From Dethiosulfovibrio peptidovorans DSM 11002 (GTDB taxonomy: Bacteria > Synergistota > Synergistia > Synergistales > Dethiosulfovibrionaceae), in assembly GCF_000172975.1 (NCBI RefSeq), contig NZ_ABTR02000001.1, positions 1,092,501 to 1,156,500 on the forward strand: a stretch of DNA of 64,000 bases. Direction: 5' to 3'. The notes beneath the pieces are model-generated. The model saw only the letters and a program-made list of their open reading frames with translations, made no database searches and was not told the origin of the DNA. Of this stretch, positions 17,324-34,216 are shown one piece after another (within the stretch, counting starts at the first letter, position 1; the number at the start of each line of letters is the position of its first letter). A program made the translations under genes and the position numbers.

Positions 17324-18442
17324 CTAGCCTCTTTCTCTCAGATATTCCTCCAAGATCTCACAGCATTTGGAAAAGTCCTTACGTCCCAGGCCGATTCGGA
17401 AGTGGTTTTCGTCGACCCCGAACACCGATCCTGGCAGGACCATGAGGCTTTTCTTCTCCACGACGTGGGTGAAAAAATCCTCTGCCGGGAAGTCTCCGTT
17501 CAGCACTGGAAAGCCTATGGATCCGGCCATCGGAGGAATCCAGCGGAACAGGTCCTCGTGTTTACCGAAGAACTCCGCCGCGGTTACGCCGTTTTCCGCC
17601 ACTATCTTTCTGCAACGTTCCATCAGATCGTCGGCACATCTCAGGGCCATGATGGACAGGAGTTCCGACGGGGCGGAGCCGCATATCGTGGTGTAGTCTC
17701 TCAGGCAGGTCACCTTTTCCATCAGGTCGTGGTCGGTGCAGGCAAGCCACCCCATCCTCAGCCCCGGCAGTCCGTACGACTTGGAAAGTCCCGAAAGGCT
17801 TACGGCCTTGGGGTATATCTCCGCCGCTGATGGCAGCCGAAGCCCCGCGGTCGGTTCCAGCCCCCGATACATCTCGTCGGAGAAGACCCATATTCCCCTC
17901 TCTTCCGCCAGGCTCAGTATCCTTCGGAACTCCTCCTTCGTGGGCTGGAATCCCGTGGGGTTATGGGGAAAGTTGACAACCAGCAGCTTGGTCTCCGGTT
18001 TAAAAAGCGACTCCAGGCGCTTCAGGTCCAGTTTCCAGCGGTTCTCCTCCAGCACGATGGGCCATTCGGACACTGTGCATCCTATCGACCTTGGAATCTC
18101 AAGCAGCGACTGATATATAGGCGACAGGGCTATCACGTGGTCTCCCTGTTCCAGAAGGGCGTTCATCGCCAGAAATATGCCCTCCTCCGGAACCAGAGTT
18201 ATCAGGTTCTCCGGACCGATCCCGTCATAGCGATCGGCGATTCCAGCCAGCAGGTCCGGATGCCCCTTGGGCTCGGTGTAGTTGAGGCGCAGATCTTTCC
18301 AGGCCTCCATCGTCTCGTCGCCCCCGAGGGCCATCAGTTCGGCGACGGTCATGCTCTCGCAGTCCGAGGCGCTCATTATATGTTTCGCCGAGAATTCGTA
18401 CCTGGCGAAATACCGCTCCAGCTTGAACGAGCGTATCTTCAA
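17324..18442 (-). CDS. Class I/II PLP-dependent aminotransferase
   Basis: A 372-residue fold-type I aminotransferase. Visible motifs are LVVNFPHNPTGFQPT (cofactor-binding Asn), IWVFSDEMYRG (Asp/Tyr contacting PLP), SLSGLSKSYGLPGLRMGWL (Schiff-base Lys in SKSYG) and the C-terminal FRIGLGRKDF with the substrate-carboxylate Arg. The specific amino acid is not evident; it belongs to the aspartate/aromatic-type superfamily. It is transcribed alone toward the NSS leader. Positions 17827-17860 are identical to spacer 9 of the type I-C array in this window. Confidence 0.92.
   Translation of the reverse strand: MKIRSFKLERYFARYEFSAKHIMSASDCESMTVAELMALGGDETMEAWKDLRLNYTEPKGHPDLLAGIADRYDGIGPENLITLVPEEGIFLAMNALLEQGDHVIALSPIYQSLLEIPRSIGCTVSEWPIVLEENRWKLDLKRLESLFKPETKLLVVNFPHNPTGFQPTKEEFRRILSLAEERGIWVFSDEMYRGLEPTAGLRLPSAAEIYPKAVSLSGLSKSYGLPGLRMGWLACTDHDLMEKVTCLRDYTTICGSAPSELLSIMALRCADDLMERCRKIVAENGVTAAEFFGKHEDLFRWIPPMAGSIGFPVLNGDFPAEDFFTHVVEKKSLMVLPGSVFGVDENHFRIGLGRKDFSKCCEILEEYLRERG
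17827..17860 (+). other. Self protospacer (perfect match to CRISPR spacer 9)
   Basis: The 34 bases match spacer 9 (26611-26644) at every position and lie inside the aminotransferase gene, on its non-coding strand. The three bases 5' of the match are CCG, not the TTC (or TTT/CTC) expected for type I-C targeting, which would explain why the cell survives an apparently complete effector. Confidence 0.97.
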
Positions 18443-18508: not shown

Positions 18509-19309
18509 GTGAAATCGAAGAGCGATGGTGTATCATCGATGACTCTGGACGTCGACGGTTTTTTCGACAGGTTCTTCGGTCCTGAGGGCAACGATACGGA
18601 CCACTCTTTCGTAGCGGTCGAAAAAGGAGCGCCTGTCGGGCTGATATTGGGTGGTGTCAGGCGATTCGACGGATATCGAAACATGAGGTGCGGTACTCTA
18701 TGCGTTCCTCCCGAGATTCGGGGAACCGGGATCAGTGGACGTCTTTTCGAGCTTTTTCTGGAGAACGCGATGGAGATAGGGTGCGAACGTCTCAGCCTGG
18801 AGGTCCTGGCGGACAACGAAAGAGCCATCAGGTTTTACGAGAGGCGAGGCTACGAGAGGAAGAACAAGCTGCTTTACTTCGGCAGGTCGACGGGAAATAT
18901 GATTGATAGTCCTTCTCGTCCCCCCGTCGGCGTCGATGTGGTGGAGACGGATGTCTCGATCGCGAGGGAATGTCGAGAGGGTATTCCCTCGGTCCATATC
19001 AACTGGCAGAACGAGGCGGATTATTTTTGTTCCGATAGGACCTCCCGGTGTTTCACCGCATACGAAGGGGGCGAGATGATCGGTGCGACGGTGATATCAG
19101 GCTCGGGAAAGGTCTATTTCCTCTGGGTGTCGGATTCTTGCAGGAGGGAGGGAATAGGACGGAATCTCCTCTACCGTGGGGTCGATGCGGTCCGCCCGGA
19201 AAAGCTGAGCATCAGTATGCCAGATAACATAGATATCCGTCCTTTCCTAGATGAAACGGGCTTCGTCAAGGAGTCGGTAGAACAGTACGAGATGTTCAGG
19301 ATGGTTTAG
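18509..19309 (+). CDS. GNAT-family N-acetyltransferase (two GNAT-like halves)
   Basis: A 266-residue protein starting GTG at 18509. The first half has the acetyl-CoA loop VPPEIRGTGISGRLFELF and ERLSLEVLADNERAIRFYERRGY, a complete motif A/B pair. The second half (about 150-266) repeats a weaker GNAT pattern (VYFLWVSDSCRREGIGRNLLYRG). It is thus a tandem GNAT protein; the second copy may be structural. The substrate is unknown. It is divergent from the aminotransferase, with only 66 bp between the starts, so the two may share a regulatory region. Confidence 0.85.
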   Translation: MKSKSDGVSSMTLDVDGFFDRFFGPEGNDTDHSFVAVEKGAPVGLILGGVRRFDGYRNMRCGTLCVPPEIRGTGISGRLFELFLENAMEIGCERLSLEVLADNERAIRFYERRGYERKNKLLYFGRSTGNMIDSPSRPPVGVDVVETDVSIARECREGIPSVHINWQNEADYFCSDRTSRCFTAYEGGEMIGATVISGSGKVYFLWVSDSCRREGIGRNLLYRGVDAVRPEKLSISMPDNIDIRPFLDETGFVKESVEQYEMFRMV

Positions 19310-19369
19310 CAGGGAGAGGCGACGGGGAGCGAAGAATTTCTTCTGATTTTCCTAGCATTGTTATTTGTC

Positions 19370-19397
19370 TTGACATGAGAAAAAACAGATGTATTAT
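19370..19397 (+). promoter_or_regulatory. Promoter upstream of the type I-C cas operon
   Basis: Consensus -35 TTGACA at 19370-19375, 16-nt spacer, -10 TATTAT at 19392-19397. The predicted transcript would cross the repeat-like element at 19523-19624 before reaching cas3 at 19656. Confidence 0.75.
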
Positions 19398-19502
19398 CAG
19401 AATAGTGCCATCGGCTTTTCAGCGATAAAGATTTTGGGGGAGAGGTTTATCTGAAGAGATGGAGTCGTCGACCCCCATAATAAAAACGCAGGAGATCCTT
19501 GG

Positions 19503-19524
19503 TTTAAAGTATTATGTTATGAGT
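19503..19524 (+). promoter_or_regulatory. Candidate target site of the crRNA-like element
   Basis: TTT at 19503-19505 is followed by AAAGTATTATGTTATGAGT. Against the pseudo-spacer beginning at 19553 (AAAGTCTTATGTTATGCGT), 17 of the first 19 bases agree; the mismatches are at positions 6 and 17. Position 6 is normally flipped out and ignored in type I R-loops. A TTT triplet is a plausible weak PAM for type I-C. Confidence 0.6.
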
Positions 19525-19624
19525 CGGGTCGATAAAGCCCGTGGATTGAAGCAAAGTCTTATGTTATGCGTATTGTGTCGATTACCTCTTAAAACGCCCT
19601 GTTGGGTTTGAAGAGGTAATCGAC
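19523..19624 (+). ncRNA. Candidate crRNA-like regulatory RNA in the cas leader (degenerate repeat + pseudo-spacer)
   Basis: Bases 19523-19552 form a 30-nt degenerate copy of the array repeat: they start GTCG, have a short stem (CGGG/CCCG) where the true repeat has its hairpin, and end CGTGGATTGAAGC against CGTGGATTGAAAC. Directly after it, 19553 onward forms a pseudo-spacer resembling a sequence 47 bp upstream. A second weak repeat-like block (GCCCTGTTGGGTTTGAAG) follows. A 14-bp inverted repeat, GTCGATTACCTCTT (19577-19590) with AAGAGGTAATCGAC (19611-19624), could stabilise the 3' end. The layout matches CreR/CreA-type RNAs known from other CRISPR systems, which guide Cas complexes to repress a promoter through partial matches. 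Function is inference; the repeat resemblance is direct. Confidence 0.6.
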
Positions 19625-19655
19625 GAAAAGAACTCTTTCATAGACGAAGGGACTG

Positions 19656-22235
19656 ATGTCCATGGTTTTAAAGGATCGTCTTGTCAGATACTTGGCTCAC
19701 GTCAGAGGCGGAGATGGATGGGAACAGCCGCTAATGGACCATTTGAGAAATGTCGGAAGGTTGAGCGAGAGCTTTGCAGGGAAAATTGGATTAGGCGATG
19801 CGGGAAAGATGATCGGTCTTCTCCATGACTTAGGTAAATACAGTAGCTCATTCCAGAACTACCTGCTTTCGTCCTCGGGAAAGATTAATCCCGACAGCGA
19901 GGAATATATGGATCCCTTCTCCAAAAAAGGCAAGATAGATCACTCTACGGCTGGGGCCAAGTTTATATGGGAAAAGCTCCGAGGGGTAGGTAAATGCGGA
20001 CAGGGAGAGGTCTGCGCTCAGATTATGGCTCTGTGTATCGCCTCCCATCACAGTGGCATGATCGACTGTCTTTCAAAGGACGATAAGCTGGTTTTCTGGG
20101 ACAGAATGGACAAACCCGACGAAGGTACTCGCTACTCTGAGTGTTTGTCGGCAATGGAGAATGATCTGAAGACCCTTTTGAACGAGAGTCTCGATGACTC
20201 TAAAGTAAATTCGATGGTGAACAGTTTTTTTAGTTATCTGAACAAAACCGCCAGGTTTTCTACCGGCGAAAAATATGGTTTTTCCACAATTGGGGCCTTC
20301 AACCTGGGAATGACAGCCAGATTTCTCCTCAGTTGTCTGGTGGATGCCGACAGAATCGACAGCGCCGAGTTCGAGGATCCCAGTAGAAAAAAAGAACGTC
20401 TGAGACGACGTGATTTCGACTGGCAAACGGGAATAGACCGATTGGAGAGAGTCCTGGATTCCTATAAGCAGGATAGCCAGGTCAACGAGATAAGGCGTCG
20501 GATATCCGACGAGTGCCTCAAAAGGGCCGATGATCCCCAAGGAATATATACCCTATCAGTACCCACCGGCGGAGGGAAGACACTGCTCAGTCTAAGATAC
20601 GCCATGCGACATGCCTTACATCATGATCTACATCGAATCATATACGTAGTTCCTTTCACATCCATCATAGAGCAGAACGCCCAGGAAGTTCGATCGATTC
20701 TCGAGGGAGAAGGCGACGCCTTTCCCTGGGTGTTGGAACATCATTCCAATATAGAACCGGAAAGACAGACCTGGAGTTACAAGCTGGCGGCGGAAAACTG
20801 GGATTGCCCAGTGGTGTTTACCACTATGGTCCAGTTTCTTGAGACCCTCTTCAGAGGAGGTAATAGCAGGGTTCGACGTATGCATATGTTGGCGAAGAGC
20901 ATACTAGTGTTCGATGAAATACAGTCTTTGCCCATAAAGTGTACCCATTTATTTTGCAACGCCCTTAATTTTCTGGTGGAACAGGCTGGGAGCACTGCGG
21001 TTCTCTGCACGGCTACTCAGCCTACCTTGGATAGGCTCTCCTCTCTAGGGAATCCGGGGTTGGCGGAAAAAGGAGAGCTTCATATGGCCGAAAACAGCGA
21101 GCTCGTATCGGATAAAACCTCTCTTTTCGACGATCTTAGGAGAGTCAGCATCAGGAATCTATCTAGGCCCGGGGGCTGGAGCAAAGAGGAGATCGGAGAT
21201 CTAGCACTGAAAAGGCTGGAAGATTTTGGCAATTGTCTGGTCGTGGTCAATACGAAGACCTGGGCGAAGAGGCTTTTCGAGTATTGCTCCTCAGAGACGG
21301 AAGCGGAGGTGACATTCCATCTCAGCACCGGTCAGTGTCCGGCCCATCGTAAAGAATGTTTATCCGTGATACGCAAGAGGTTGATCGAGGGGAAAAGGGT
21401 TTTGTGTATAAGCACCCAGCTTATAGAGGCAGGGGTGGACGTGGATTTCGGGGCGGTAATACGTTTTATAGCGGGATTGGATTCCATAGCGCAGGCCGCA
21501 GGCCGTTGCAACCGACACGGTGAGTTACGCGATTTCGAGGGAGTTCCAATGATGGGAGACGTCTCTATTGTAAATCCGTCAGAGGAAAAAATTTCCACCC
21601 TCAAAGATATTCTCATCGGTCAGGAAAAGACCAAACGGATTTTAAGTGAGTACAAGGAAGAACATAAACATGAGCTTAAGACATGTGAGGCTACGGATTA
21701 CAGTGGACTATTGGATCCGATCACTCTATACAGGTACTTCGATTATTTCTTTTTCGAACGGACTGACGAGATGGGCTACAACTTCAGCGGTAAAGGTGGT
21801 CGGGACGATAACCTGTTGAATCTGCTCTCTTTGAACGATAGAAGTGGTTTGGCCGAGTTCAATGTTAATAGAAAAAACACTGGTAAGGCCCCTCTGTTGT
21901 TGCAGTCGTTTAAGTACGCAGGAGAAATTTTTAGAGCTATAGATGCCCCGACCAATTCTGTTATATGTCCTTACGGCGAAGGCGAGAAGTTGATCTCGAA
22001 GCTGTGTTCTTTGTCGATAGGATTCGAGTTTGAAGAATACGGAGCTCTTTTAAGGAGGGCTCAGCAATATAGCGTAAACGTGTTTCCAAACGTGTGGAAA
22101 AGGCTCTGTAACGCGGGAGCCGTTCACGAAATTCAAGAAGGAGAGGGAGTGTTCTACCTTGATAAAACCTTCTACAACTCCGATTTTGGTCTTTGCCTCG
22201 AGCAGGACGCCCCTATGGAGCCGTTGATATCATGA
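19656..22235 (+). CDS. cas3: Cas3 nuclease-helicase, type I-C
   Basis: An 859-residue protein. The N-terminal HD nuclease has LMDHLRNVGRLS, LLHDLGKYSSSFQNYL and IASHHSG (metal ligands present). The SF2 helicase follows with Walker A VPTGGGKTLLSLRYAM near residue 305, the DExD-box LVFDEIQSLP, STQLIEAGVDVDF and QAAGRCNRHGE (motif VI). All catalytic motifs are intact, so the effector should be able to degrade targets. It degrades DNA unwound at Cascade-bound targets. It heads the cas3-cas5c-cas8c-cas7c operon and shares an ATGA overlap with cas5c. Confidence 0.97.
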   Translation: MSMVLKDRLVRYLAHVRGGDGWEQPLMDHLRNVGRLSESFAGKIGLGDAGKMIGLLHDLGKYSSSFQNYLLSSSGKINPDSEEYMDPFSKKGKIDHSTAGAKFIWEKLRGVGKCGQGEVCAQIMALCIASHHSGMIDCLSKDDKLVFWDRMDKPDEGTRYSECLSAMENDLKTLLNESLDDSKVNSMVNSFFSYLNKTARFSTGEKYGFSTIGAFNLGMTARFLLSCLVDADRIDSAEFEDPSRKKERLRRRDFDWQTGIDRLERVLDSYKQDSQVNEIRRRISDECLKRADDPQGIYTLSVPTGGGKTLLSLRYAMRHALHHDLHRIIYVVPFTSIIEQNAQEVRSILEGEGDAFPWVLEHHSNIEPERQTWSYKLAAENWDCPVVFTTMVQFLETLFRGGNSRVRRMHMLAKSILVFDEIQSLPIKCTHLFCNALNFLVEQAGSTAVLCTATQPTLDRLSSLGNPGLAEKGELHMAENSELVSDKTSLFDDLRRVSIRNLSRPGGWSKEEIGDLALKRLEDFGNCLVVVNTKTWAKRLFEYCSSETEAEVTFHLSTGQCPAHRKECLSVIRKRLIEGKRVLCISTQLIEAGVDVDFGAVIRFIAGLDSIAQAAGRCNRHGELRDFEGVPMMGDVSIVNPSEEKISTLKDILIGQEKTKRILSEYKEEHKHELKTCEATDYSGLLDPITLYRYFDYFFFERTDEMGYNFSGKGGRDDNLLNLLSLNDRSGLAEFNVNRKNTGKAPLLLQSFKYAGEIFRAIDAPTNSVICPYGEGEKLISKLCSLSIGFEFEEYGALLRRAQQYSVNVFPNVWKRLCNAGAVHEIQEGEGVFYLDKTFYNSDFGLCLEQDAPMEPLIS

Positions 22236-22963
22236 GATATGACATGCCTAAAAACAGTCTCAGCTTTTTGTTGTGGGGAAGATATGCTATGTTCACCGAC
22301 CCTATAACGAGGATAGGTGGAGAAAAGTGCTCGTATCATATCCCCACTTACGAGGCTCTGAAGGGAGTCCTCAAGTCGATATATTGGAAGCCAACGATAA
22401 TTTGGTATGTCGATAAGGTTAGGGTGATGAGCTCTTTTCGCACTCAGACAAAGGGTACCAAGCCTCTTAAGTGGGGTGGTGGAAACGATTTGTCCATATA
22501 TACCTTTCTACATGAAGTTTCGTACCAGGTAGTGGCCCATTTCGAGTGGAACGAACACAGACCTGAACTGGCCGGTGACCGTATAGACGGAAAGCATTAC
22601 AACATAGCTAAGCGATCTCTGGATCGAGGGGGTAGGCAGGATGTCTTTCTAGGGACCAGAGATTGCCAGGGGTACGTGGAGCCATGTGTTTTCGGCGAAG
22701 GGCCGGGAGATTATGACGATCTGGACGAACTGGCCTTTGGTCTGATGTTCCATGGTTTCGACTACCCCGACGAGACGGGAGAGGAGAAGCTGTACAGTCG
22801 TTTCTGGTATCCGGTTATGGAGAAAGGAATAGTGACCTTCCCCCGTCCGGAGAACTGCCCGGTGAAGAGATATATCCGTCCTATGGAGCCAAAGTCTTTC
22901 TCTGAGGGGAATAATTTCCGGAACGTGGATGAAGAGGAGCATTGCCATGAGCTGGATGGGTAA
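22232..22963 (+). CDS. cas5c: Cas5c, crRNA-processing subunit of type I-C Cascade
   Basis: A 243-residue Cas5d/c-family protein. LLWGRYAMFTDPITRIGGEKCSYHIPTYEALKGVL is the family N-terminus. In type I-C, which lacks Cas6, Cas5c cuts the pre-crRNA repeat and stays on the 5' handle. It starts at the ATG overlapping the cas3 stop; an upstream in-frame extension lies within cas3 and is not used. It overlaps cas8c by 17 nt. Confidence 0.95.
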   Translation: MRYDMPKNSLSFLLWGRYAMFTDPITRIGGEKCSYHIPTYEALKGVLKSIYWKPTIIWYVDKVRVMSSFRTQTKGTKPLKWGGGNDLSIYTFLHEVSYQVVAHFEWNEHRPELAGDRIDGKHYNIAKRSLDRGGRQDVFLGTRDCQGYVEPCVFGEGPGDYDDLDELAFGLMFHGFDYPDETGEEKLYSRFWYPVMEKGIVTFPRPENCPVKRYIRPMEPKSFSEGNNFRNVDEEEHCHELDG

Positions 22964-24983
22964 ACTTTACGATACCTATGAAAGAGCTATGGAATTGAAC
23001 CTCCCCCAAGAGGAAAAGCCGATCCCGGAGGGACACGTAGTTCAAAATGCTCACATAAACATAGTCCTAGATAGCGAGGGGAATTTCAAGCGAGCCAGCG
23101 TGATCGGGAAAGTCCCGGTGGTCCTACCGGCGACTGAAAAATCCGCTGGTAGAACCAGTGGAGAGGCCCCCCATCCTTTGGCTGACAAACTGCAATATGT
23201 GGCAGGTGACTATGCTGAACTTGGAGGTAAAAAACCCTCGTATTTTGATGGATATCTGGAGCAGCTTAAAAATTGGCGTGATTTTTTAAAGGATCATAAG
23301 GATATCGCATTTTCAAAGGTTAACGCAGTGTATAGTTACGTTGGTAAAGGATGTGTAATAGACGATCTCGTGAAAGAAAGCGTGGTCTGGCTGGATTCGA
23401 AGGGAAAGCTGGCCTGTAGTACAGATCAACTTTCCGATGAGGATCAAAAGAAGGCTTCTTTATTGAGGTTTTTGCCTAAAGAGAAGGGAGAATTCGAACA
23501 AGGAAGTGCCTTAGTGTGTTGGACCGTAGAGATCTCCCATGATCTCCAATCCAACACATGGAAAGATTTAGAGATTCAGCGAGCCTGGAGGGATTATTTA
23601 TTGTCCCAGGAAACGATTAAGGGCTTGTGCTATGTGACAGGAAAAGATGTTGCCATAGCCCTAAATCATCCGGCGAGGCTTCGTAATTCCGGAGACAAAG
23701 CAAAACTCATATCGAGCAACGATAAGGACGGTTTTACGTTTCGAGGAAAGTTTTTCGATAGTAAAAAAACTATCGAGAAAGAGGGCTATCAGGCAGCCAA
23801 CGTAGGGAGTTCTGTCTCTCAAAGGGCCCACAGCGCTCTCCGCTGGCTCATAGATAGGCAGGGTTTCAAGAATGGAGATCAGATTGTTATTGCCTGGGCA
23901 ATTAGCGGAAAAAAAGTTCCACCTCCGATGGAGTCTCTGCCGGAGTTTGATTTCGATGATCTAGGAGAAGGGGCATGCGAGACCTCCGATGTGGACATAA
24001 GGGACATGAGTCCTGATCTGTCCTCCGATCTTGGGCAGGGGTTTGCCAGAAAGCTGACTCTCTATATGAATGGTTATAGAAGTTCTCTTTCTCCCGACGA
24101 GTCTGTGGTCATAATGTCCATCGATTCGGCCACGCCTGGAAGAATGGGCATCACATACTACAGAGAGTGCTTTGCCCATGAATATGTGGATAGAGTCGCC
24201 CAATGGCATTCTGACTTCGCCTGGCTTCAGAGAAAGGGCGATGGAGGAACTGGAAGAGGCAAATATGAGGATTGGGAGGAATTCGCCCCAGCTCCTCCTC
24301 TTATAGTCGGTTGTTCATACGACGAGTCTTTGAAGGGGAACACGAAGTTCAAGGGATTCACCTACGAGAGGATTTTGCCAGCGATAGTGGAGTCCAGAAA
24401 TATCCCCTACGACATAGTCGCTTCATCAGTTCGAAAAGCATGTGCTCCTAGGCGAGCCTCTAAAAAAGGTGGAGCTGATTACAAGGAGTGGGAGAAAACT
24501 TTAGGTGTCGCCTGTGCCCTTTACAGGGGCTTTTTCAGGCGACATGAGAATACAGACAAAAGGAGGTATTACCCCGTGGGATTGGATGTTGAGAACAGAT
24601 CGAGAAGTTACCTTTTCGGGCGACTTCTTGCGATCGCCGATGGAATAGAGAGTTTTGCTCTTATCAAGTCCAATGAGACCAGACCAACATCAGCAGAAAG
24701 GTTAATGCAGCGTTTTGCCAGTCATCCCTGTTCGACCTGGAGGACCATAGAACTCTCCCTTCAACCCTATATGCAGAGGCTTTTGCGTAGCGGTCATGGC
24801 GGATTTATAACCAACAGGAAAAGGGATCTCGACTCGGTGATGGAGCTTTTCGACGGTGCGGATTTCTCCAGCGATGCCCCTCTGGAAGGGGAGTTTCTGC
24901 TGGGTTTTCATTGTCAAAGGCTGGAATTGCTTAGAAAAAAAGATAAATCGGCTACCGATAATAGCGAGGGAGGGAACAAGTAA
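22947..24983 (+). CDS. cas8c: Cas8c (Csd1), large subunit of type I-C Cascade
   Basis: A 678-residue Csd1-family protein, the PAM-recognising large subunit, with the WMGKLYDTYERAMEL start, a central DAxPGRMGITYYRE-like stretch and a helical C-terminus (about 500-678) whose internal translation gives the small subunit Cas11c in characterised I-C systems. The ATG at 22947 has GAGGAG 7-8 nt upstream, better placed than the in-frame ATG at 22929. It overlaps the cas5c 3' end and shares one base with cas7c (TAATG). Confidence 0.94.
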   Translation: MSWMGKLYDTYERAMELNLPQEEKPIPEGHVVQNAHINIVLDSEGNFKRASVIGKVPVVLPATEKSAGRTSGEAPHPLADKLQYVAGDYAELGGKKPSYFDGYLEQLKNWRDFLKDHKDIAFSKVNAVYSYVGKGCVIDDLVKESVVWLDSKGKLACSTDQLSDEDQKKASLLRFLPKEKGEFEQGSALVCWTVEISHDLQSNTWKDLEIQRAWRDYLLSQETIKGLCYVTGKDVAIALNHPARLRNSGDKAKLISSNDKDGFTFRGKFFDSKKTIEKEGYQAANVGSSVSQRAHSALRWLIDRQGFKNGDQIVIAWAISGKKVPPPMESLPEFDFDDLGEGACETSDVDIRDMSPDLSSDLGQGFARKLTLYMNGYRSSLSPDESVVIMSIDSATPGRMGITYYRECFAHEYVDRVAQWHSDFAWLQRKGDGGTGRGKYEDWEEFAPAPPLIVGCSYDESLKGNTKFKGFTYERILPAIVESRNIPYDIVASSVRKACAPRRASKKGGADYKEWEKTLGVACALYRGFFRRHENTDKRRYYPVGLDVENRSRSYLFGRLLAIADGIESFALIKSNETRPTSAERLMQRFASHPCSTWRTIELSLQPYMQRLLRSGHGGFITNRKRDLDSVMELFDGADFSSDAPLEGEFLLGFHCQRLELLRKKDKSATDNSEGGNK

Positions 24984-25822
24984 TGAGCTTGAGCAAGAAA
25001 ATTGATTTTGCCTTGGTATTCTCTGTCGATAGAGCCAATCCTAACGGTGATCCTCTTAACGGCAATCGCCCCAGAATTGACTACGAAGGATACGGAGAGG
25101 TTTCCGATGTGTGTCTCAAACGAAAGATACGAGATCGCTTGGTGGAGGATGGATATTCTATATTCGTGCAGTCGGATCAGAAAAAGATAGATGGCATGCC
25201 TAGTTTGAGGAAGCGTGCGGAGTCGGCGGATTTCGGTTTAGGCAAGGAGGCTTTTGATTCCAAAAAGACGAAGGCAGAGGATTTTGTTAAAAAAGCCTGT
25301 GGAAAATGGTTAGACGTGAGGACGTTTGGACAGCTTTTCGCTTTTGGGAACGATAACAAAGGAGGAGTGTCCATCCCTATACGTGGTCCTATGACGATTC
25401 AGTCTGCCTTTTCCGTAGAGCCTGTCTCTGTTGCAAGTATACAGATCACAAAAAGTGTAAGCGGAGATGGGGATGGCTCGAAAAGAGGCTCCGATACGAT
25501 GGGGATGAAACATCGGGTCGATCATGGAATATACGTGACCTACGGTGCGATCAGCCCTCAGTTGGCGGAGAGAACTGGCTTCAGCGATGAGGATGCCGAA
25601 GTGATAAAAAGAGTTCTTCCCAAGATTTTCGAGGGTGACGCCTCTTCCGCTAGGCCAGAGGGATCTATGTCTGTCATAAAAGTTCTCTGGTGGGAGCATT
25701 CTTCAAAGATGGGAAGCTTTTCCTCAGCAAAAGTGCACGGAACCTTGACGGTGAACCCCGATGGGTCCTATGAAGTAGATTCTTTAGAGGGTATTTCTCT
25801 TGAGGAGATAGACGGTTTTTAA
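24983..25822 (+). CDS. cas7c: Cas7c (Csd2), backbone subunit of type I-C Cascade
   Basis: A 279-residue Cas7 RAMP protein: DFALVFSVDRANPNGDPLNGNRPR at the start and GVSIPIRGPMTIQSAFSVEP, SDTMGMKHRVDHGIYVTYGAI in the core are Csd2 hallmarks. It polymerises along the crRNA spacer. It is the last gene of the effector operon; the array leader follows directly, instead of the cas4 gene expected in typical I-C loci. Confidence 0.95.
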   Translation: MSLSKKIDFALVFSVDRANPNGDPLNGNRPRIDYEGYGEVSDVCLKRKIRDRLVEDGYSIFVQSDQKKIDGMPSLRKRAESADFGLGKEAFDSKKTKAEDFVKKACGKWLDVRTFGQLFAFGNDNKGGVSIPIRGPMTIQSAFSVEPVSVASIQITKSVSGDGDGSKRGSDTMGMKHRVDHGIYVTYGAISPQLAERTGFSDEDAEVIKRVLPKIFEGDASSARPEGSMSVIKVLWWEHSSKMGSFSSAKVHGTLTVNPDGSYEVDSLEGISLEEIDGF

Positions 25823-26053: not shown

Positions 26054-28180
26054 GTCGCTCCCTCACGGGAGCGTGGATTGAAACCCTTTGGGATATCCAT
26101 GGTAAGGATGGGGTCCCCGTCGCTCCCTCACGGGAGCGTGGATTGAAACCCCTCCTCGGGTATGCTACAGGCCCCCGATTTTCGTCGCTCCCTCACGGGA
26201 GCGTGGATTGAAACCTTAAGGAGGCAAGACCCCATGAATAACACGGCAGTCGCTCCCTCACGGGAGCGTGGATTGAAACTCGAGCTCAAGCGGCTAAGTC
26301 TTGGCGATCTCATGTCGCTCCCTCACGGGAGCGTGGATTGAAACTTTAATACATAAACCCTCTCAAGATTTCCGGGTAGGTCGCTCCCTCACGGGAGCGT
26401 GGATTGAAACCGAAGATACGCGCGGCATCGGCGGCGTCCATGCCCGAGTCGCTCCCTCACGGGAGCGTGGATTGAAACCGTCTGGACATTCGGGCTGTAT
26501 CCCCCGTACCCTGAGTCGCTCCCTCACGGGAGCGTGGATTGAAACCCCGCTTAGCAGGAGCTTCCCAGTTATCGTCTTGGTCGCTCCCTCACGGGAGCGT
26601 GGATTGAAACCTGATGGCAGCCGAAGCCCCGCGGTCGGTTCCAGGTCGCTCCCTCACGGGAGCGTGGATTGAAACTCCGACGCCGCCCTGGAACACTCGA
26701 ACTCGAAGGTCGCTCCCTCACGGGAGCGTGGATTGAAACCACTCAGGCAGTCCGCCAAACGGACACCGAGAGTGTCGCTCCCTCACGGGAGCGTGGATTG
26801 AAACTGCGGTTGCACATGATAGGGGGTTACGAGGATGCGGGTCGCTCCCTCACGGGAGCGTGGATTGAAACCTCTCTGTGGAGGAAGATAGACAGGTCCA
26901 GCGCGGGTCGCTCCCTCACGGGAGCGTGGATTGAAACGCCGGAGATGGGGCCACCCTATCGTGGTCACATCGTCGCTCCCTCACGGGAGCGTGGATTGAA
27001 ACCCTCGAAAAAGCTGGCCACAAACGACGTGGCCGCGTCGCTCCCTCACGGGAGCGTGGATTGAAACCCTCGAAAAAGCTGGCCACAAACGACGTGGCCG
27101 CGTCGCTCCCTCACGGGAGCGTGGATTGAAACTTTAAGTGAGAGAGGAAGTCCGAGGCCGCCGCCCGGTCGCTCCCTCACGGGAGCGTGGATTGAAACGC
27201 TCCCTCAGGCGAGGGATGAGGCGAAAAAAATAGTCGCTCCCTCACGGGAGCGTGGATTGAAACTTATTACGAGAGTTCCAATGTCCTTGCTGCCTCACGT
27301 CGCTCCCTCACGGGAGCGTGGATTGAAACTCTATCACTTGCCCTTGCCCAGGGATAACTTCTAGTCGCTCCCTCACGGGAGCGTGGATTGAAACTGATGG
27401 CTACAGAGAGGATTTTCGGTCTGTCATGAGTCGCTCCCTCACGGGAGCGTGGATTGAAACCTTCCGTGGCAAAAAACACCGCTGGATTATAACGTCGCTC
27501 CCTCACGGGAGCGTGGATTGAAACACCTGGTACGCAGAAGAGCTGTCTGTACAGACTGGTCGCTCCCTCACGGGAGCGTGGATTGAAACATCGATAAGTC
27601 CTGCTCGCTTTCCTGCAACCGACAGTCGCTCCCTCACGGGAGCGTGGATTGAAACCCCAGCCTCAGCCAACGCCTCAGCCCCTGGGCTCAAGTCGCTCCC
27701 TCACGGGAGCGTGGATTGAAACCCGTAGTCGCTGATAGATGCAGGGATCTGATATGGTCGCTCCCTCACGGGAGCGTGGATTGAAACCCGTAAGAAAAGC
27801 TTTTAAGCGCATCGCCCCAGGAGTCGCTCCCTCACGGGAGCGTGGATTGAAACATCGTTACAACACGACAGCAAGCGAAGTGATAATGTCGCTCCCTCAC
27901 GGGAGCGTGGATTGAAACTGGTCGAGAGATAAGAGAAAGAAGGAAGGCATTAGGTCGCTCCCTCACGGGAGCGTGGATTGAAACTCTGATTCTCTCAGGA
28001 AGAAAGCAACTCTTATCGTGTCGCTCCCTCACGGGAGCGTGGATTGAAACAATAGTTGGCTTGCTCTAGCGTCAGCGACACCTCGTCGCTCCCTCACGGG
28101 AGCGTGGATTGAAACAGGACCTCGTACACGTTGTCCGGGGTCATGACTCGTCGCTCCCTCACGGGAGCGTGGGGTAAGAC
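26054..28180 (+). CRISPR. Type I-C CRISPR array, 33 repeats / 32 spacers
   Basis: A 31-nt repeat beginning GTCGCTCCCTCACGGG and ending AGCGTGGATTGAAAC, with a 7-bp hairpin (CGCTCCC/GGGAGCG), occurs 33 times; 32 copies are perfect. Spacers are 33-37 nt, mostly 34-35. The last repeat (28150-28180) is degenerate, with its 3' end changed to TGGGGTAAGAC, marking the leader-distal end, so transcription is on the plus strand. Spacer 9 (26611-26644) is a perfect match to the aminotransferase gene at 17827-17860. Spacers 15 (27003-27036) and 16 (27068-27101) are identical. Short open frames across the array (repeated 'RSLTGAWIET') are artefacts of the repeats. Confidence 0.99.
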
Positions 28181-28227
28181 ACAGATCAAAATAATGGTTA
28201 GAAACAAAAAATAGAGGAGGTGATCTC

Positions 28228-30326: not shown

Positions 30327-31079
30327 TTGGCGTATCTGAAAAAGTTAGTGCTCTCGGTTTTATTCGTATGTCTTACGGCCGGTAGTGTTTTTGCCGTCGG
30401 AGTGGACGACATCCGCTTCATGACAGAGGAGTATCCTCCTTTCAACATGAAAGGAGACGACGGAGTCGCTACCGGAATAGCTGTGGACGTTTTGGTCGAG
30501 ATGTTCAAGAGGGTGGGTTCTTCCAAGACCGCCAAGGACGTGGAGGTGCTGCCTTGGGCCAGGGGCTATAAGGAAATTCAGTCGACCCCGAATACCAGCC
30601 TTTTCTGTATGACTCGCTCTGAGGAAAGAGAGCCGTTATTCAAGTGGGTTGGTCCGATCGCTTCCACCAGGGTTGTAGCGACCGCCTTAAAAAGCAAGGG
30701 TATAACCGTCGGGACCGTCGCCGATCTGGCCGATCTCTCCGCTGGGGTTATAAAGGACGATATAGGTGACCAGTTGGCGGAAAAAGCGGGAATCAAAAAG
30801 ATAGATAGAACTGCCAACAACGACCAGAACATAAAAAAGCTTAACTCCGGCAGGGTGGACATCTGGATTTACGAGGAGAACGTGGCTCTTTGGCAGCTCA
30901 AGGACATGGGGTTCGATCCGGCCGATTATGAAACCGTATATGTTTTGGAGGCCGGACGTCTGGACTACGCCTTCCACAAGGACACCGACCAGGCCCTTAT
31001 AGATCAACTTCAGAAGGTGCTGGACGAGATGAAGGCCGACGGATCCTATCAGGCGATAGTGGACAAATATCTGCGCTGA
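30327..31079 (+). CDS. Periplasmic solute-binding protein (SBP_bac_3), copy 1
   Basis: A 250-residue secreted protein. An N-terminal signal peptide (LKKLVLSVLFVCLTAGSVFA, cleavage after about residue 23) is followed by a type-II periplasmic binding fold of the polar amino-acid family: DDIRFMTEEYPPFNM, then GIAVDVLVEMFKRVG and VDIWIYEENVALWQLK. No permease or ATPase gene is adjacent, so it acts as an orphan receptor or pairs with a distant transporter. The TTG at 30327 follows AGGAGGG at 30314-30320. It is about 80% alike by eye to copy 2 at 31230. Confidence 0.9.
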   Translation: MAYLKKLVLSVLFVCLTAGSVFAVGVDDIRFMTEEYPPFNMKGDDGVATGIAVDVLVEMFKRVGSSKTAKDVEVLPWARGYKEIQSTPNTSLFCMTRSEEREPLFKWVGPIASTRVVATALKSKGITVGTVADLADLSAGVIKDDIGDQLAEKAGIKKIDRTANNDQNIKKLNSGRVDIWIYEENVALWQLKDMGFDPADYETVYVLEAGRLDYAFHKDTDQALIDQLQKVLDEMKADGSYQAIVDKYLR

Positions 31080-31092
31080 TCCCCTGAAATAA

Positions 31093-31136
31093 GGACCGAG
31101 TTCCGGCTATGATCCAAAGGGATCCCTCATCGTCCG
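31093..31136 (+). pseudogene. cas2 3'-end remnant carried in the duplication
   Basis: Reads SGYDPKGSLIVR in the cas2 frame, against GYDPEGSLIV-stop at the true cas2 end; the stop codon TGA has become CGA. It precedes copy 2 at the same relative position that the cas2 end precedes copy 1, so the duplicated unit began inside cas2. Confidence 0.85.
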
Positions 31137-31164
31137 ATGTAGTTGTGTCTCGAGAGGGAATGTT

Positions 31165-31194
31165 TTGACTATGTATCGTAATCGATAGTATAAC
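31165..31194 (+). promoter_or_regulatory. Promoter of solute-binding gene copy 2
   Basis: -35 TTGACT (31165-31170), 18-nt spacer, -10 TATAAC (31189-31194); a duplicate of the copy 1 promoter with one -10 change. Confidence 0.7.
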
Positions 31195-31229
31195 AATTAA
31201 GTGGCAAATATCCTTAAGGAGGGATCGCT

Positions 31230-31982
31230 TTGGCGTATCTGAAAAAGTTCGTGCTCTCGGTTTTATTCGTGTGTCTTGCGGCCGGCAGCGTTTTCGCAGT
31301 CGGAGTGGACGATATTCGTTTCATGACCGAGGAACTGCCGCCATACAACATGAAGGGCGACGATGGAGTCGCTACCGGAATAGCTGTGGATGTCCTGGCA
31401 GAGATATTCAAGAGGGAGGGTTCTTCCAAAACCGCCAAGGATGTGGAGGTGTTGCCCTGGGCCAGAGGCTACAAGGAGGTTCAATCGACCCCTAACACCT
31501 GTCTTTTCAGCATGACCTATACCGACGAGAGAAAACCCATGTTCAAGTGGGTGGGTCCTCTGGCAGCTTCCAGGACGGCGGTCGTCGCCCTCAGGAGCAA
31601 GGGCATAAAAGTCGGCTCCGAGGCCGATCTTGCCGATCTTTCCGCCGGGGTCATAAAGGAGGACATAGGCGATATCCTGGCCCGTAAGGTCGGAATGACC
31701 AAGGTGGAGATAGCGGCCAACAACCTTCAGAACGTCAAGAAACTGAACTCTGGTCGAATCGATGTTTGGGTCTACGAGGAAAGCGTCGCTCAGTGGCAAC
31801 TCAAGGATATGGGGTTCGATCCGGCGGACTACGAGACAGTCTTCGCCTTGAGCGAGAGCCACCTTTACTACGCCTTCCACAAGGACACAGACCAAACCCT
31901 TATAGACCGACTTCAGAAGGTGCTGGACGAAATGAAGGCTGACGGATCCTACCAGGCGATATTGGACAAATATTTACGTTGA
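31230..31982 (+). CDS. Periplasmic solute-binding protein (SBP_bac_3), copy 2
   Basis: A 250-residue paralogue of the preceding gene with the same signal peptide, TTG start and AGGAGGG site. Differences cluster in the ligand-binding lobes (EELPPYNM for EEYPPFNM, SMTYTDERKPMF for CMTRSEEREPLF, ALSESHLYYAFHKD for VLEAGRLDYAFHKD), which suggests that the copies may have diverged in ligand preference. It is followed by a strong terminator. Both copies appear functional. Confidence 0.9.
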   Translation: MAYLKKFVLSVLFVCLAAGSVFAVGVDDIRFMTEELPPYNMKGDDGVATGIAVDVLAEIFKREGSSKTAKDVEVLPWARGYKEVQSTPNTCLFSMTYTDERKPMFKWVGPLAASRTAVVALRSKGIKVGSEADLADLSAGVIKEDIGDILARKVGMTKVEIAANNLQNVKKLNSGRIDVWVYEESVAQWQLKDMGFDPADYETVFALSESHLYYAFHKDTDQTLIDRLQKVLDEMKADGSYQAILDKYLR

Positions 31983-32807: not shown

Positions 32808-34216
32808 TGTTTCGCACATTAATATTTGACTCAGCAGGCCCATATAGGGCTATGTTCGGTTTTTAAGGCTTTCTGTGTCAGCTTACGATGGCATTATTTT
32901 CTTGCTCCAGTATCTGTTCTCTGAGATGCTCCATGTTCATGTAGGCTCTCTTACCCCACTGGGTGGAAGCTACATGCCTGACTCTGGCGGATACCAGCAT
33001 CAGGGCCGATTCCCCGTCGGGGAAGTTGCCCACGACCTTTGTCCTTCGACGAATCTCTCGGTTCAGTCGTTCCAGAGAATTGTTGGTTCTGAGCCGCTTC
33101 CAGTGTTCCGAGGGAAAATGGAAGTAGCTCAGGGTCTCCTCGTAGCCTTCCTGGACGATCTTGGCGGCTTTCTGAAGTTTCATGGCCTTCAGCTTTTCGA
33201 CCACGGCTTCAGCTTTTTCTCTGGCTGCTTTCAGGTCTTCCTGGTTGTGTATCGCCTTCAGCATCAGGCTTACTTCTCGTGCCTTCCCCTTCGGGACGGC
33301 ACTGTAGACGTTGCGGTAGAAATGAACTATGCAACGTTGCCACAGAGCTTCAGGGAAGAAATGGGGTAGGGTTTCCAAGAGCCCCATGCTTTTATCGGAG
33401 GTGACGAGACGGACCCCTTTCAGGCCTCTTTCTTTAAGATGCCTCAGGAAGGAGGACCAGCTTTCCTTGTCCTCTCGGCTGCCTTCGCATACGCCCAGAA
33501 CCTCTCTATAGCCCATCTGGTTGACCCCTATGGCTATAAGTATCGAGACGTTATGGACCTCGCCTCCCCAGCTCTTTTTGAGCCAGATACCGTCAAGAAA
33601 CACGTAGGGATGCTCACCCCTGATAGGACGGTTTCTCCACTCGTCGATTCTGCCGTAGATCTTCTTGTTTAGATCGCTTACGGTAGATGGGCTTATCCGG
33701 GTTCCCCAGAGGGCCTCGGTGATGTCCTCGACCCTGCGGACCGAGACTCCGGCCAGGTACATCTCCACCAGGGCCTCTTCCACCGAGCTTTCACGGCGAC
33801 GGTAACGTTCGATGATCGCAGTCTCGAAGGGGAGTTTACGGAGCTTCGGAACCTTCAGCTGCACCTCACCGGCTTTGGTCTGAAGCTTCCTGCTGTAATA
33901 GCCGGCACGGGTGTCCAGACGGTCCGGGGTACGTTCGTAACGACCGGCCTGGCAGATTGCGTCCGCCTCGGCATCCAGCAACGAGTTCAGGGTATCCTCT
34001 ACGGTTCCCTTCACTATCCGATCCAGATGGGAACGGATCTCCTGTTCGTCGATCCTTATGATCTTGGAATCACCCTTTGTCTTCCCGGTGTTATCTGTGG
34101 TATCGTACATTTGCGGTAGCCCTCCCTCGGGACAATATGTTTTTGGCTTTGTCACCTAAAACATAACCCTTGTGGGGGCTACTGCCAAGTTTTACCTCAA
34201 GTAAATGTGCGAAAGA
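32808..34216. mobile_element. IS256-family insertion sequence
   Basis: The ends carry an 11-bp perfect inverted repeat, TTTCGCACATT (32810-32820) and AATGTGCGAAA (34204-34214), with weaker similarity further in (GGGTTATGTT against GGCTATGTTC). It encloses one intact transposase gene on the minus strand. No convincing 8-bp target duplication was seen (CTGTCCAG left, TTGTACGT right), so exact ends are approximate or the flanks have changed. It sits 10 bp from the stop of the downstream reductase gene without truncating it visibly. Confidence 0.85.
32878..34110 (-). CDS. IS256-family transposase
   Basis: A 410-residue Mutator-like DDE transposase: first Asp in PYVFLDGIWLKKS, second in RLVTSDKSMGLLETL, the QRCIVHFYRNV block, and the Glu in ERLNREIRRRTKVVGNFPD. 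A longer frame starts at 34155, but the ATG at 34110 has a GAGGGAGGG site at proper distance and gives the usual length. No frameshift or stop, so it may be active. Confidence 0.95.
   Translation of the reverse strand: MYDTTDNTGKTKGDSKIIRIDEQEIRSHLDRIVKGTVEDTLNSLLDAEADAICQAGRYERTPDRLDTRAGYYSRKLQTKAGEVQLKVPKLRKLPFETAIIERYRRRESSVEEALVEMYLAGVSVRRVEDITEALWGTRISPSTVSDLNKKIYGRIDEWRNRPIRGEHPYVFLDGIWLKKSWGGEVHNVSILIAIGVNQMGYREVLGVCEGSREDKESWSSFLRHLKERGLKGVRLVTSDKSMGLLETLPHFFPEALWQRCIVHFYRNVYSAVPKGKAREVSLMLKAIHNQEDLKAAREKAEAVVEKLKAMKLQKAAKIVQEGYEETLSYFHFPSEHWKRLRTNNSLERLNREIRRRTKVVGNFPDGESALMLVSARVRHVASTQWGKRAYMNMEHLREQILEQENNAIVS

Follow-up and report, generated by a model that had tools for sequence, protein, structure and literature searches.

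Shmakov et al. 2023 reportedly surveyed CRISPR repeats that stand alone in cas loci and whose spacers match cas promoters in part, and the element described here resembles those in being a candidate standalone CRISPR-derived regulatory element in a cas locus. The primary CreR study of Liu et al. 2023 is said to have covered types I-B, I-E and V-A. CreR RNAs are crRNA-like and regulate cas genes in type I and V-A systems (PMC12737573), CreA of CreTA modules is a degenerate ectopic repeat that guides Cascade via a partial match (PMC9458426), and Racr are solitary phage repeats serving as decoys, RacrIC1 included (PMC10651486). In type I-C systems, gene repression needs no Cas3 activity, binding by Cascade being sufficient (PMC10865793, PMC7913775).

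The 64-kb stretch of DNA analysed here (the window) carries, in the leader of a type I-C cas operon, an element that as judged from its sequence probably encodes a crRNA-like guide and CreR-type autorepressor of that operon (rough probability 0.8), and that would add type I-C in Synergistota to the known CreR-type autorepressors. As in CreR, a solitary degenerate repeat is followed by a guide partly matching the cognate cas promoter or leader, and autorepression without cleavage would be expected by analogy. Unlike CreR, the system is type I-C, so that Cas5c instead of Cas6 must process the guide; the guide lies within the cas leader with its target downstream of the promoter, and what comes after it is a hairpin, neither a second repeat nor a terminator. 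The element shares with CreA a degenerate repeat outside the array and a partial match by which Cascade would be guided, but its target is the cas leader and not a toxin promoter: no toxin turned up between promoter and cas3, no listed ORF of at least 80 aa intervenes between the element and cas3, and the only genomic site with PAM plus seed is the one in the cas leader. With Racr it has in common a solitary I-C-type repeat outside an array, but whereas those are phage-borne decoys, it sits in the host cas leader and its guide has a target.

The operon, on the + strand, has the order cas3-cas5c-cas8c-cas7 and is a complete type I-C system by NCBIfam models: cas3 at its start (19656..22235; cas3_HD exceeded its cut-off, the Cas3 helicase core fell slightly short of its own), cas5c, encoding the subunit that cleaves type I-C repeats (22193..22963; TIGR01876, 245 bits; ORF as listed, the true start may be further in), cas8c (22929..24983; TIGR01863, 297 bits; ORF as listed) and cas7 (Csd2; 24983..25822; TIGR02589, 319 bits). 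The Cas5c, Cas8c and Cas7 models and the Cas3 HD domain, all above cut-off, bear out the subtype given in the preliminary description. The CRISPR array follows on the same strand (26054..28181; 33 repeats of 31 nt, the last degenerate, spacers of 33-37 nt). Two adjacent array units share the same spacer (26972-27101; duplicated repeat-spacer unit), and another spacer (26611-26644) is identical at 34/34 positions to 17827-17860, in a host aminotransferase-like gene upstream of the operon; the PAM-side flank of this protospacer is CCG, not TTC, which may account for tolerance of the self-matching spacer. Further downstream are two neighbouring similar 250-aa ORFs of the solute-binding-protein type (30327-31982; tandem duplication, period about 903 bp) and, a few kb beyond cas2, a probable transposase gene on the - strand (32878-34155; 425 aa, IS256/mutator-like by eye).

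The degenerate repeat (19523..19552, + strand) reads directly as the 30-nt sequence GTCGGGTCGATAAAGCCCGTGGATTGAAGC, the array repeat being GTCGCTCCCTCACGGGAGCGTGGATTGAAAC. In the folded array repeat, 2 unpaired nt precede a 7-bp stem, which an 11-nt tail follows; the pseudo-repeat takes the same register, with 2 nt, a 5-bp stem (19525-19529/19537-19541) and an 11-nt tail, so that the copy with short hairpin and 3' handle proposed earlier was found in both sequence and fold. This tail, the handle TGGATTGAAGC (19542-19552), differs from the array handle at 1 base, and within 1 mismatch of the 12-nt handle GTGGATTGAAAC, position 19541 is the sole non-array site in the 64-kb window. Type I-C Cas5d/Cas5c leaves an 11-nt 5' handle (PMC5965380), and the predicted cut in the pseudo-repeat therefore falls at 19541/19542; by fold and handle, the element, although outside the array, is a predicted substrate of the cognate processing enzyme Cas5c. 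Rfam gave no match at the pseudo-repeat element, and the array itself gave only weak CRISPR-repeat matches.

The handle runs into a pseudo-spacer (19553..19576, + strand), the predicted guide, with its seed at the 5' end. Direct reading confirmed the seed-end match reported in the preliminary description: AAAGTCTTATGTTATGCGT (19553-19571) agrees with the protospacer-like target AAAGTATTATGTTATGAGT (19506..19524, + strand), 47 bp upstream, at 17/19 positions, with mismatches at 6 and 17. No further site for the guide 19-mer was found in the window at up to 5 mismatches, and the 2.58-Mb window genome (G000) and a same-genus genome (G003) each have a single copy of the PAM plus seed (TTYAAAGTNTTATG). 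Pairing stops at about position 19, too short for interference given array spacers of 33-37 nt; a complete R-loop would extend to about 19540. The target is flanked by TTT (19503..19505, + strand), TTC in G003. The type I-C consensus PAM is TTC (PMC7913775), and both TTC and TTT are PAM consensus sequences in the Neisseria lactamica I-C system (PMC10865793); of the two, the window has the weaker, TTT. In crRNA bound by Cascade, one base in every six is flipped out (PMC5965380); position 6 has a reduced effect in vivo (PMC5904413) and little weight for Cascade binding (PMC5904413, PMC5965380), in line with the earlier claim that type I complexes ignore this mismatch; the window mismatch at 17 is not at a multiple of 6.

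A promoter scan of 19200-19760 gave one + strand match, TTGACA-16-TATTAT at 19370..19397 (11/12 consensus). Because it is the only promoter-like site on that strand, the guide and the cas genes appear to share one transcript. The strong promoter upstream of the element, part of the earlier proposal, was recovered, but some 100 bp separate it from the target, which is further downstream, inside the predicted transcribed leader rather than on the promoter, and any repression would therefore be a roadblock. Directly after the 24-nt guide stretch a 15-bp hairpin begins (19576..19625, + strand), and the fold of 19519-19630 has a z of -4.7 against shuffles. The hairpin may, according to the fold model, define or protect the 3' end of a small RNA; it begins GTCG and contains GGTTTGAAG, and was considered as a second repeat but judged not convincing. 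A terminator scan of the leader found none, and the hairpin is without a T run; a guide embedded in the cas leader without a terminator is peculiar to the window, as is a target some 100 bp past the only recognisable promoter. Several points weigh against autorepression here: a target so far past the promoter is a weaker repression site than the promoter itself, the window lacks the second repeat or terminator by which a separate small RNA could form, its PAM is TTT and not TTC, the mismatch at 17 is off the six-base period, and the close comparison covers a single relative.

The leader alignment with related Synergistota, suggested at the outset, was favourable. G003, one same-genus genome, has the operon at 96% Cas3 identity and the same upstream gene, and keeps the promoter unchanged. 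Across 19503-19625, no base differs among the 88 in target positions 1-15, stems, handle, spacer and hairpin stems, as against 8 of the 35 in PAM, target tail and loops (probability of this split about 2e-5, hand estimate). The pseudo-repeat loop differs at 4/7 bases and the loop of the 15-bp hairpin at 2 bases, with both stems and the handle unchanged.

For the comparison across lineages, 129 non-redundant regions lying upstream of cas3, taken from Synergistota and from other bacteria, were scanned on both strands for a TTGAAAC-like handle (up to 1 mismatch) followed by a 16-nt guide with a TTC- or TTT-flanked match. All 16 guide positions were counted, 6 and 12 included, because a scan ignoring these two would bias the mismatch test; a wider search for solitary handles across long loci was too permissive and its results were set aside. 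The best match among all 129 regions was the window itself (15/16), and a repeat handle, guide and PAM-flanked target were found ahead of cas3 in five more Synergistota: L101 (G137), L122 (G127) and L116 (G040), each 14/16, L112 (G114), 13/16, of the same family as the window and with a second repeat, and L106 (G153), 12/16. Cas5c and Cas8c models confirmed type I-C for G137, G127, G114 and G040; the contig of G153 ends within cas3, and its subtype is presumed to be I-C. Where an array of the same genome was found, the handle resembles it: in G137 TTAGTTGAAAC compares with CTAGTTGAAAC in the array, to which the handle conforms in TAGTTGAAAC, and in G127 TTTGTTGAAAC compares with TGAGTTGAAAC. 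The targets cover the -35 box and spacer of a promoter-like site in L101 and L122, lie between -35 and -10 in L106, and fall just past the -10 box in L112 and L116. The repeats of L112 form a two-repeat mini-array 250-420 bp before cas3, on the opposite strand, with a spacer matching the cas leader. All six guide/target pairs have unrelated spacer sequences, each aimed at its own cas promoter or leader, and the Cas8c proteins are about 20-40% identical; the pairs were therefore set independently or have long diverged. Guide-target pairing is thus kept in one same-genus relative and recurs in five independent analogues.

Most Synergistota cas3 loci examined had no such element by the handle-guide-target scan, and about 87 non-Synergistota regions gave no convincing guide/target pair. 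Two candidates were excluded as unproven: L130 (G197, Riflebacteria), 105-240 bp before cas3, with a handle-like ATTGAGAC and a TTC-flanked 13/16 match (mismatches 4, 9, 13) but a guide without a repeat-like hairpin, and L140 (G308, from the class to which the Desulfosarcina genome G188 also belongs), with a solitary I-C repeat and an A-rich guide (mismatches 9, 13, 15). In L140, about 150-400 bp ahead of cas3, the repeat is found downstream of a 24-codon ORF that has a ribosome-binding-like site, and the guide matches best on the upstream side of this ORF, a possible, unproven CreTA-like module. A canonical solitary repeat in L024 had no target in the 300 bp examined.

The position of the element in a transcribed leader lacking a terminator, with the same-register stem and 11-nt handle, would also suit a mere Cas5c cleavage site, by which Cas5c trims its own messenger, lowering or stabilising it, the direct repeat being unimportant. 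We regard this as unlikely: it leaves the PAM-flanked guide-target match and its conservation unexplained, together with the five other pairs, in which guides do not overlap their targets and either precede terminator-like hairpins or sit on the opposite strand.

Pairs with at least 14/16 matches were present in 4/129 regions, compared with 0.08 per dinucleotide-shuffled set (maximum 1 in 60 sets), and those with at least 13/16 in 7 regions, compared with 0.55 (maximum 3). Within positions 1-15, mismatches fall at 6 in the window, 12 in L101, 6, 7 and 12 in L106, 6, 12 and 13 in L112, 6 and 12 in L116, and 9 and 12 in L122. For these six pairs, which were selected by a repeat-like handle, 9/12 mismatches are thus at 6 or 12, as against 13% in shuffles (P = 2e-6); for all matches of at least 13/16 irrespective of handle, the count is 7/15 (P = 0.0018). 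This pattern is predicted by no operator or relic explanation. It bears on the very improbable reading of the direct repeat AAAGT(A/C)TTATGTTATG as an operator pair for a protein regulator beside a coincidental handle, for which two near-identical leader sites 47 bp apart would be suitable, as a regulator may bind twice. Besides the clustering at 6 and 12, such a pair would leave unaccounted for that the second copy starts exactly where the CRISPR handle ends, that the PAM is on the other copy, that TTYAAAGTNTTATG has no further copy in the genome, and that the same architecture appears in other lineages with unrelated sequences. Least probable of all is a functionless relic, namely the decayed end of a former CRISPR array or leader, which a degenerate, single-copy repeat would fit, but not a spacer matching its own leader instead of foreign DNA, G003 differences that avoid stems, handle, spacer and seed target, or recurrence in other Synergistota.

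The mismatches at 6 and 12 and the recurrent PAM-flanked pairs thus speak for a CreR-type autorepressor rather than for a protein operator or the relic of an array, and the self-limiting I-C circuit of the preliminary description gains support from G003 and the five unrelated Synergistota pairs, expression, processing and repression being its inferred parts. The autorepressor would work as follows. The leader would be transcribed from the predicted promoter at 19370, and Cas5c would cut at the base of the pseudo-repeat stem, leaving the 11-nt handle on the pseudo-spacer. Cas5c-Cas8c-Cas7 would load this guide RNA and bind from 19506 onward, behind TTT or TTC. Since about 19 paired nt would not suffice for Cas3 to cleave, the bound complex would only block RNA polymerase in the leader, with lower cas transcription and less of its own guide as the presumed outcome. 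By analogy with CreR, array crRNAs would compete for Cascade, such that plentiful crRNAs or a blocked Cascade would ease repression. An R-loop reaching about 19540 would cover pseudo-repeat DNA, so the guide would limit its own synthesis. More tentatively, since the cas messenger carries the guide in its own leader, a single cut by Cas5c could both free the guide and sever the cas mRNA leader, a second negative feedback linked to the Cascade roadblock on DNA; we consider this possible rather than probable.

With the pattern at 6 and 12, Cascade guides could be tested for at any type I locus from sequence alone, and thanks to the leader-embedded form two plasmids would be enough to ask in a simple way if a CRISPR complex is able to control the messenger that encodes it. 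The self-control of cas genes by RNA guides would be extended to type I-C in Synergistota, for which none was described in the literature searched and an earlier I-C report is possible. Six unrelated pairs with one architecture suggest that this control arose or was re-targeted repeatedly.
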